Made by a program: the position numbers and the translations under genes. A stretch of DNA of 17,594 nucleotides from Bacteroidales bacterium (GTDB lineage Bacteria; Bacteroidota; Bacteroidia; Bacteroidales; UBA932). Of this stretch, positions 2,500-17,594 are shown in pieces. The stretch lies in assembly GCA_017615135.1 (NCBI GenBank), contig JAGAAU010000091.1, positions 1 through 17,594 on the forward strand, given 5' to 3'. The notes below the pieces were generated by a model, which saw nothing but the letters and a program-made list of their open reading frames with translations, made no database searches and was not told the origin of the DNA. Each line of letters opens with the position of its first letter. Positions within the stretch are counted from its first letter, which is position 1.

Positions 2500-3261
2500 A
2501 TGAATTGCACTGTAAAACAGATGGCTGCCCCGATGTCTCATTGCGAAGAGCTAAGAGAAGCGGCACTCATATGCGTTTTAGGCCCCACGGCCTCGGGAAA
2601 AACCGCTTTTGCGGTAAGGCTTGCGCGGTCTCTCGGAGTGCCGGCGGAAATTATCTCGGCAGACAGCCGGCAGGTTTACAGAGGAATGGACATAGGCACC
2701 GGTAAAGACCTGTGCGAATACGGGGAAATCCCCTACCACCTTATAGACATAGTAGACGCCGGAGAGCAGTACAATGTTTACCGCTATAAGGAAGATTTCC
2801 TGAAAGCCTACCGTTCGGTGCGGGAACGCGGAGCGGTACCAATACTCTGCGGAGGCACCGGCCTTTACATCAGCGCGGTTACCGGCAATTACGATTTTTC
2901 CGGGAACACTCCCCTGAGCGACCCTGCGCGCAATTCAGATCCGTACCATACCTACTTCATCGGTATGCTGGTAGACAGAGATACCAGGAATGCGCGGATA
3001 GACGCCCGGCTCGATGCCAGACTCTCAGAAGGAATGGTGGAGGAAATTCAGGGCCTGCTGGATGCCGGAGTCCCTGCCGAACGCCTCATTTCCTACGGGC
3101 TGGAGTATAAATTCGTTACCAAATACCTGTTGGGAGAGCTGGACTACGCCCAGATGCGGGACCTGCTGGCCATAGCCATCCACCAGTTTGCCAAACGCCA
3201 GATGACCTGGTTCCGGGGCATGGAGCGCTCCGGCATAAAAATACATTGGACCAAACCATGA
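2500..3261 (+). CDS. miaA: MiaA-type tRNA dimethylallyltransferase, abbreviated form
   Basis: Up to 253 residues, against about 300-315 for usual MiaA. Family marks: P-loop GPTASGKT (28-35), ISADSRQVYRGMDIGTG (52-68) with the catalytic-type D55, GGTGLYISAV (118-127) and the C-terminal KRQMTWFRG (232-240). MiaA transfers dimethylallyl to A37 of tRNAs reading UNN codons. The stretch between GGTGLY and FIGMLVDRDTR is only about 30 residues where E. coli MiaA has roughly 90, so most of the helical insertion domain, which grips the anticodon arm, is missing. It may be a second MiaA paralog or have a changed substrate. The start is uncertain: ATG 2500, 2521 or 2533. Its stop overlaps the next start (ATGA), indicating translational coupling. 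Confidence 0.8.
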   Translation: MNCTVKQMAAPMSHCEELREAALICVLGPTASGKTAFAVRLARSLGVPAEIISADSRQVYRGMDIGTGKDLCEYGEIPYHLIDIVDAGEQYNVYRYKEDFLKAYRSVRERGAVPILCGGTGLYISAVTGNYDFSGNTPLSDPARNSDPYHTYFIGMLVDRDTRNARIDARLDARLSEGMVEEIQGLLDAGVPAERLISYGLEYKFVTKYLLGELDYAQMRDLLAIAIHQFAKRQMTWFRGMERSGIKIHWTKP

Positions 3262-17446: not shown

Positions 17447-17454
17447 TATCTTTG
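17447..17454 (+). promoter_or_regulatory. Promoter of the tRNA-Leu gene
   Basis: TATCTTTG is a full match to TAnnTTTG, 24 bases before the first base of the mature tRNA. No -33 TTG box is seen at the usual spacing. Confidence 0.55.
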
Positions 17455-17478: not shown

Positions 17479-17512
17479 GCCTTGGTGGTGAAATGGTAGA
17501 CACGAGGGACTT
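17479..17512 (+). tRNA. tRNA-Leu(UAA), 5' exon only
   Basis: The exon folds as the first half of a tRNA-Leu: acceptor strand GCCTTGG (17479-17485), TG at positions 8-9, D stem GTG/CAC (17488-17490 with 17501-17503) around a D loop holding GGTAGA, G26, anticodon 5' stem AGGGA (17505-17509), then C32, U33 and U34. The bases after U34 do not supply a TCCCT to close the anticodon stem, and no T arm or acceptor 3' strand CCAAGGC occurs before the window ends. The gene is therefore split after the first anticodon base, which is the exact intron position of cyanobacterial tRNA-Leu(UAA). The anticodon UAA is inferred from that position and the AGGGACTT context; the 3' exon is not in the window. Confidence 0.8.
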
Positions 17513-17594
17513 AGAAAATTGAGTGCTCGCTCCGAAAGGAGTGAAGTAGAATGTCGTAAATTCAAGGAAGCCTTAACAGGTAATGCTGATGGTA
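17513..17594 (+). ncRNA. Group I intron in tRNA-Leu, 5' part (runs off right edge)
   Basis: The start fits a tRNA group I intron. P1: exon ACTT (17509-17512) pairs with GAGT (17521-17524), putting the required U-G wobble (U17512 with G17521) at the 5' splice site. P2: 17527-17533 pairs with 17538-17544 over a GAAA tetraloop. A conserved P/P4-P5 segment follows, AAATTCAAGGAAGCC (17558-17572), very close to the AAACTCAGGGAAACC of cyanobacterial tRNA-Leu introns. The Q, R and S elements, P7, the terminal G and the 3' exon lie beyond the edge. No homing endonuclease frame is visible in the 82 bases present. Subgroup IC3 is expected from the insertion site and motifs. Confidence 0.8.

Follow-up and report, generated by a model that had tools for sequence, protein, structure and literature searches.

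A group I intron after U34 of tRNA-Leu(UAA) in a gut or rumen Bacteroidales bacterium, probably a disarmed member of a mobile lineage with phages as likely carriers

The split tRNA-Leu(UAA) gene and its ribozyme

The window, that is, the whole stretch of 17,594 nucleotides that was analysed, is the complete contig G000:C6 of a 62%-complete genome from a gut or rumen bacterium, and it ends within a tRNA-Leu(UAA) gene that is split after U34 by a group I (IC3-like) intron. The features of this locus, all of them on the forward strand, are the following.

17447 to 17454, + strand: -7 promoter box TATCTTTG of the TAnnTTTG type, read directly; no TTG at the -33 spacing in the window
17479 to 17512, + strand: 5' exon of tRNA-Leu(UAA), position 1 to U34 (GCCTTGG...GGGACTT), read directly; U34 is 17512
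17509-17512 with 17521-17524, + strand: P1, ACTT/GAGT, closed by a U.G pair at the 5' splice site; the loop is only 8 nt in the window
17513 to 17594, + strand: 5' part of the group I intron, 82 nt from P1 to P5, read directly and ended by the contig end
17513 to 17593, + strand: open frame RKLSARSERSEVECRKFKEALTGNADG, probable remnant of the C-terminal, core-encoded tail of an HNH endonuclease; in relatives the endonuclease ends in a similar peptide
17526 to 17546, + strand: P2 hairpin with a GAAA loop; its stem covaries in relatives, with 5 of 8 pairs changed on both sides
17552 to 17556, + strand: P3 5' strand, TGTCG; its partner lies past the contig end, and the third pair is UA in 30 of 47 relatives and CG in 17 of 47
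17562 to 17566, + strand: P4 5' strand; its partner lies past the contig end, and the pair columns are invariant in 47 relatives
17570 to 17593, + strand: P5 and P5a; the base of P5 is G.U in the window, and the middle pair of P5a is AU in 23 and GC in 22 of 47 relatives

The same exon runs on as AAAATCCC in intronless relatives, where ARAGORN calls a tRNA-Leu (taa). A 155-nt query taken from the window matched 43 of 61 genomes (its own included), many of them in the tRNA exon alone. In six genomes of the same genus, exon and intron were matched as a single piece of about 115 nt (83-87% identity, E from 1e-35 to 5e-31), so that the match of tRNA and intron is more than chance. Furthermore, an exact 19-nt signature of the intron core gave at least 120 loci in genome contigs, almost all of them Bacteroidales or Bacteroidia by record title and many from ruminant or horse samples. 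The 120 listed loci were examined: 109 have both exons and the intron at the same site, and the 11 that lacked one exon, in some cases because the stored stretch and not the contig ends there, were dropped before counting. The closest of these 109 two-exon introns to the 82 nt of the window, among the matches listed, are L152, L140 and L055 (94.6% over 74 nt).

The preliminary description had recognized a group I intron after U34 of tRNA-Leu(UAA) and proposed to look for the 3' exon and the terminal G. Both are present in the complete relatives, together with P6 to P9, and the reading of the locus stands; neither was found in the window's own 62%-complete assembly, where a search for the 3' half of the intron (one genome, without a positive control) gave no match. 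The U.G splice-site pair in P1, the GAAA-capped P2 and the P4-P5 segment listed in that description could all be placed in the window. It had also raised the possibility of a neighbouring intact tRNA-Leu(UAA), but no uninterrupted GGGACTTAAAATCCC, that is, no intact anticodon-loop string, occurs in the own genome (62% complete). A dead remnant at this locus, no longer able to splice while an intact tRNA-Leu(UAA) elsewhere serves the cell, would fit with the missing 3' half and with the seven same-genus genomes, described below, that hold both states of the gene. We consider this quite improbable, as the 82 nt of the window keep P1, P2, P5 and P5a pairable as well as the P3 and P4 5' strands of the relatives, and the own genome shows no intact copy of the string.

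With regard to transcription, the gene had been credited with a strong -7 promoter of its own. The box is present, and 97 of 107 relatives among the matches listed have a TAnnTTTG at most 60 nt ahead of the tRNA (mononucleotide shuffle mean 1.7). That the promoter is strong is not borne out, since a TTG at the -33 spacing was found in just 23 of these 107 relatives, among the matches listed, and not in the window.

The structure was tested with a hand-named model of 57 pairs, from P1 to P9, on 47 distinct complete short introns among the matches listed. In these 47 relatives 96.8% of the cells are paired (shuffle mean 92.9), 19 pairs are changed on both sides (shuffle mean 10.9) and such cells amount to 147 (shuffle mean 51.1). 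None of 500 shuffles equalled the real alignment on any of five measures, and slid structures pair 27-42%. Covariation was detected in P3, P5a, P6a, P8 and P8a. P1, P4, P6 and P7 are without variation across the 47 relatives, so that covariation neither backs nor opposes these pairings; in the case of P1, its four pairs and the U.G at the splice site are invariant (47 of 47), and the U.G is also found in the window. The base of P5 is G.U in 19 of the 47 relatives and A.C in 24, two pairs that are isosteric. The P3-P8 core with the guanosine site in P7 is whole in the relatives, while the window reaches the 5' strands of P3 and P4 and P5, and a terminal G precedes the 3' exon in all 109 two-exon introns among the matches listed, a position that lies past the contig end of the window.

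Rfam gave no match on the window at the gathering score or at E<=1, as is expected for what is only a fragment. RF00028 was matched in 14 of the 61 genomes, all of them of the window's genus (8 over the cut-off), and L002 was the only one matched at the gathering score among five intron-bearing loci (L002, L057, L206, L210 and L252). Beyond P5 the anatomy of the window copy, including its completeness past the contig end, is presumed from that of its relatives. On these grounds the element would be an IC3-like group I ribozyme whose anatomy suggests self-splicing. The tRNA precursor would be transcribed from the TAnnTTTG promoter, P1 would hold the 5' splice site with its U.G pair, and a guanosine bound in P7 would start two transesterifications, after which the exons would join in the anticodon loop to give a normal tRNA.

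The HNH endonuclease in the P1 loop and its remnants

Complete introns span 211-752 nt, and the 109 listed ones comprise 68 short (211-255 nt), 12 intermediate (256-600 nt) and 29 long introns (>600 nt). The long introns have about 500 nt extra between the 5' splice site and the internal guide and, among the matches listed, 27 of the 29 carry there an open HNH endonuclease frame that runs into the core; L088 and L063 do not. The latter is Candidatus Cryptobacteroides onthequi, with an intron of 733 nt whose length and reading frame are as in G012. PF01844 scored over the cut-off in both endonuclease proteins scanned. The frame passes the internal guide into the ribozyme core, and 12 of the 27 listed frames end in P6 after NLEPSL, 11 at a TAG in the 3' strand of P7 and 4 elsewhere. 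Among the best 120 of 3095 endonuclease homologues, 70-100% identical to the query, SALSEK- and NLEPS-like motifs are present in all 120 and GAETRH in 114.

The endonuclease gene is under purifying selection: the median dN/dS of its body is 0.08 (28 usable pairs of 351, the other 323 being saturated or too close), and that of the core-coded tail is 0.26 in 339 pairs. In a structure model of the protein (mean pLDDT 73, pTM 0.46) the N-terminal helices and the HNH part are confident, and most of the core-encoded tail looks unstructured, because residues 152-159 and 174-206 fall under a pLDDT of 50. A fold search of the PDB with this model gave nothing at E<=0.001 (best EcoKMcrA, 0.011), and a sequence search of solved structures with the endonuclease gave nothing significant (best E 0.072).

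The ends of the insert pair as an extension of P1, with a mean of -22.8 kcal/mol as compared to -10.0 when the 3' strand is shuffled (n=27, among the matches listed). Ahead of the endonuclease start, and again among the matches listed, a TTTG-N17-23-TAnnTTTG element is present in 9 of 27 copies (shuffle mean 0.02) and missing from 18, and a TAnnTTTG box in 11 of 27 (shuffle mean 1.2), 9 of these 11 boxes lying 8 nt before the ATG. These elements suggest that the endonuclease gene may own a promoter in some copies. The shuffles for the promoter elements, the P1 extension, the tRNA box and the tail frame were made with single letters, not dinucleotides.

Remnants of the endonuclease region, of various sizes, are found in other introns. 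The window copy has no endonuclease gene, and the tail remnant alone is left in it. An 89-nt tail frame is kept in 66 of 67 anchored short introns among the matches listed (L062 is without the anchor). As the endonuclease tail frame is still open in its 82 nt, the window copy is probably derived from a mobile intron whose endonuclease has been lost, although constraint on the RNA alone could also explain the open tail frame of the short introns. Three further introns (L010, L058 and L117) have in the P1 loop a repeat-like insert bearing CAACGTGGCA motifs, and no endonuclease gene.

Intact copies hold an HNH endonuclease gene in the P1 loop, closed off by the long P1-extension helix and in part provided with a promoter-like element of its own, and the frame passes the internal guide and enters the catalytic core. 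Intronless tRNA-Leu(UAA) genes are presumably what the enzyme cuts, and their repair would copy the intron in. The endonuclease gene would then decay and be deleted, giving rise to short introns like that of the window, and empty genes would be fresh targets. I-SspI is the homing endonuclease of the cyanobacterial tRNA-fMet group I intron and belongs to another nuclease family. It is alike in being encoded in a bacterial tRNA group I intron and aimed at the anticodon region, whereas in our case the tRNA is a different one and the enzyme is an HNH protein that is read through into the ribozyme core.

Intron states in the genus, the family and the order

Among 300 genomes of the window's genus (Candidatus Cryptobacteroides), 93 contain the intron core signature and 131 an uninterrupted gene, so that empty alleles are found among close relatives. 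Seven of the 300 contain the interrupted and the intact gene together; their intact copies lie on contigs of 3.3-7.8 kb and, in one case, at the end of a 31-kb contig, and these both-state genomes possibly reflect mixing in the metagenome-assembled genomes (MAGs). In the family the signature was present in 34 of 299 genomes and in 4 of 25 genera, and in an order-wide sample in none of 393 genomes, of which only 6 belong to the family. The pattern used for this distribution is exact and misses diverged copies and cut contigs, that of the window included.

On a MiaA tree of 28 genomes and the window, from which G005 and G019 were left out because they had only a paralogue, the intron state changes 8 times, compared to a shuffle mean of 10.0. 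As 13% of the shuffles were as low or lower, the intron state is patchy, with no significant clustering. The window itself contains a miaA-like gene (2500-3261). All of 30 genomes have a homologue of it, although two are matched via a paralogue alone. MiaA acts beside the anticodon of tRNAs such as tRNA-Leu(UAA), which is close to the splice site, and the presence of this gene on the same contig as the split tRNA-Leu(UAA) is probably a coincidence.

Contigs of MAGs frequently stop in or beside the intron, as in the window and in L008, L013, L017, L018, L059, L107 and L111, as if strain variation broke the assembly. In addition, L045 (G021:C47, - strand, with the exon ending near position 1100 of the reverse complement) contains by eye a clearly different group I-like intron of 263 nt at the same U34|A35 site and in the same genus, and Rfam is silent in that genome. 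Judging from L045, two intron families possibly share one site.

Phage and other cellular relatives and the origin of the intron

Among viral contigs, the 19-nt signature gave 12 loci and two further patterns gave 10 and at least 120 loci. A first regex sort of the at least 120 viral loci yielded 14 with both tRNA-Leu(UAA) exons, 8 in which only the 3' exon was recognised, 47 followed by a T-arm and 51 others; the 47 lay outside the first tRNA-Leu pattern, yet some of them later proved to be tRNA-Leu. When the exons of 86 recognised-core loci among the matches listed were joined in silico, 64 gave a tRNA-Leu (taa) with the junction at U34|A35 and 22 gave none. The 64, among the matches listed, are 62 viral-contig loci, a Bacteroidota genome (L185) and a Bradyrhizobium plasmid (L374), and L206 and L372 likewise splice in silico to tRNA-Leu (taa). 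The 62 listed viral loci collapse to 47 distinct introns, L206/L207 and L372 being outside that set. Among these 47 distinct viral introns, in the matches listed, 36 are short, 6 have an open frame that ends before the core (with an HNH motif recognised in four) and 5 have a frame into the core. The core-spanning frame extends into the P8 loop in L209, L212, L215 and L217 (287-298 residues open).

With regard to the carriers, 11 of 24 intron-bearing viral contigs tested, including L209, L212, L214 and L215, contain terminase PF03237, which is also matched in 6 of 14 control genomes. It was not found in the other 13 of the 24, which are fragments and include L206, L207, L210 and L217, and phrog_2 was present in 9 of the 24. 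In the public 595-kb phage record LR756511.1 (L372), the tRNA-Leu(UAA) gene is interrupted by 700 nt of intron, and the related endonuclease encoded there (38% identity) lies by eye within P6. The phage HNH endonuclease family phrog_10822 spans residues 2-264 of the L210 homologue (E 1.2e-53); its PHROGs entry is silent on a tRNA intron, and the bacterial copies differ in being without the L8-encoded extension.

Over the core, the identity to L071, a member of the window's group, is 80-85% for five phage tRNA-Leu(UAA) introns and at most 77% for other phage introns (among the matches listed), 74% for the Bradyrhizobium intron, 71% for a cellular Bacteroidota intron and 71% for that of Azoarcus. 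A core tree was built with 84 sequences of 105-126 nt, from which L213 and L045 are absent and for which the window fragment is too short. In this tree the 29 introns that belong to the window's group fall into a single clade (0.784), in which endonuclease-bearing and short introns are mixed and which adjoins L215/L217, then L209/L212 and L206 (enclosing nodes 0.906, 0.338 and 0.916). The introns of the window's group are thus nested within phage introns, among the matches listed, and those of other cellular Bacteroidota, Bradyrhizobium and Azoarcus fall elsewhere. In the endonuclease tree, for which seven of 26 proteins were cut at a differing end point, the phages are also nearest: 14 bacterial and 5 phage copies group together (0.996), the bacterial clade (0.564) is a neighbour of the phage clade (0.949) and does not nest within it, and L217 lies outside. 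Judging from these sequences, the intron is kin to phage introns. The closest relatives found occupy the same site in phage tRNA-Leu(UAA) genes, which makes phages the likely carriers, and the transfer may have run from phage to bacterium.

The trees and the distribution also bear on an old vertical descent within the family with repeated loss, phages having taken the intron from such bacteria. This is rather unlikely in our opinion. It would account for the restriction to one family (34 of 299 genomes and 4 of 25 genera, as compared to 0 of 393 order-wide, 6 of which are of the family), and for the single bacterial clade beside the phage copies in the endonuclease tree; however, the patchiness on the MiaA tree, the selection on the endonuclease and the nesting of the cores among phage introns argue against it.

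The tRNA-Leu(UAA) intron of cyanobacteria is likewise inserted after U34 and, as in plastids, is a small IC3-type ribozyme. Because both the tRNA and the splice position are identical, the horizontal transfer of a trnL intron from a cyanobacterium or a plastid has to be weighed, but we regard it as very unlikely indeed: the nearest relatives of L071 are phage tRNA-Leu(UAA) introns (80-85% over the core, in a comparison with phage, Bradyrhizobium, cellular Bacteroidota and Azoarcus introns), P7 of plastid trnL introns is GACTC as opposed to GACTA in the window's group, and we know of no HNH gene in P1 of cyanobacterial trnL introns. The present intron is further set apart, by description, by its other host phylum, the HNH gene in P1 of its relatives and its phage kin. 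The origin offered as the second choice in the preliminary description, a little-noticed bacterial lineage of the intron, agrees better with the data, with the qualification that this lineage has a patchy distribution in a single Bacteroidales family and that its closest relatives are introns of phage tRNA-Leu(UAA) genes. The tRNA-Ile intron of Azoarcus and proteobacterial IC3 tRNA introns are alike in P7 (GACTA), in the GAAA loops of P2 and P9 and in the core layout. The host tRNA of Azoarcus is a different one and the core identity is 71%, and to our knowledge no core-spanning endonuclease has been found in these introns.

Our preferred reading, which we hold with considerable confidence, is that the window has a group I intron of a mobile lineage at U34 of tRNA-Leu(UAA), that its copy is probably a disarmed short form and that phages are the likely carriers. 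A more specific proposal, which we put forward only tentatively and as a possibility, is that phages with their own intron-bearing tRNA-Leu(UAA) spread the intron, together with the core-spanning HNH endonuclease, among the tRNA-Leu genes of phages and bacteria. The intronless tRNA-Leu(UAA) of the host or of a rival phage would be cut by the enzyme, the phage's own gene being immune, and gut Bacteroidales, the host of the window among them, would keep disarmed leftovers. Among bacterial introns, that of tRNA-Leu(UAA) is the classic example of an "old and settled" one, and here the same site appears to be passing through a live cycle in a single genus, with empty, endonuclease-bearing, decaying and disarmed genes. 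Moreover, a coding frame inside a ribozyme core is an unusual double constraint for study, and the phage-borne copies make horizontal movement directly testable.

As far as we have seen, the site and the ribozyme type are known, and the host lineage, the core-spanning endonuclease and the phage relatives are new. The restriction of other bacterial tRNA introns to Arg, Ile or fMet genes, which had been taken as given, does not hold, as tRNA-Leu(UAA) introns are also present in other Bacteroidota and in a Bradyrhizobium plasmid, and putative group I introns have been reported in tRNA-Leu-TAA of Beggiatoa and Thiomargarita (PMC4853749). The hosts in that report are Gammaproteobacteria, and according to its text the structure and subtype of those tRNA introns were not determined (PMC4853749). 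The phage introns known by 2014 were all in protein genes despite the many phage tRNA genes, as stated in a review of that year (PMC3984707), a phage-host transfer has been suggested for another subtype, IA2 (PMC11835236), and many group I introns are described in protein genes of gut huge phages in a preprint whose main text contains no word starting with "tRNA" (PMC12363816). Introns of tRNAs are also mentioned in circularised bacterial genomes (PMC8172020). A literature search, with subscription papers mostly outside its scope, returned no report on a Bacteroidales tRNA-Leu intron or on phage tRNA-Leu group I introns, which is no proof of their absence from the literature.

Plasmids were considered as a vehicle for the endonuclease and set aside, as it had no match in the plasmid search. 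In the case of the intron core, 1,269 plasmid records, mostly from Enterobacterales, have a stretch 60-80% identical to it (for example, NZ_CP028312.1, 55550-55688), and the 20 of these 1,269 that were listed cover 58-71% of the query, with no annotated feature at the match. In many viral contigs (L252-L371), group I introns seem to be located in other tRNA genes as well, with 3' exons that begin with CATAA, CTAAG, GTAA and others. In five viral loci (L205, L208, L211, L213 and L216) the same core lies by eye inside DNA polymerase-like genes, after DADYSS and TINFG, and in L213 and L216 a reading frame starts before the core and runs through it. Finally, RF00028 was matched in 29 of 395 genomes of the phylum (Bacteroidota), and group I introns were seen by eye in other Bacteroidota in tRNA-Arg(UCU)-like genes, genes with a CAU anticodon and 23S rRNA genes (loci L178, L181-L183, L186-L188 and L202; L184, L191 and L197; L180, L190 and L198-L201).
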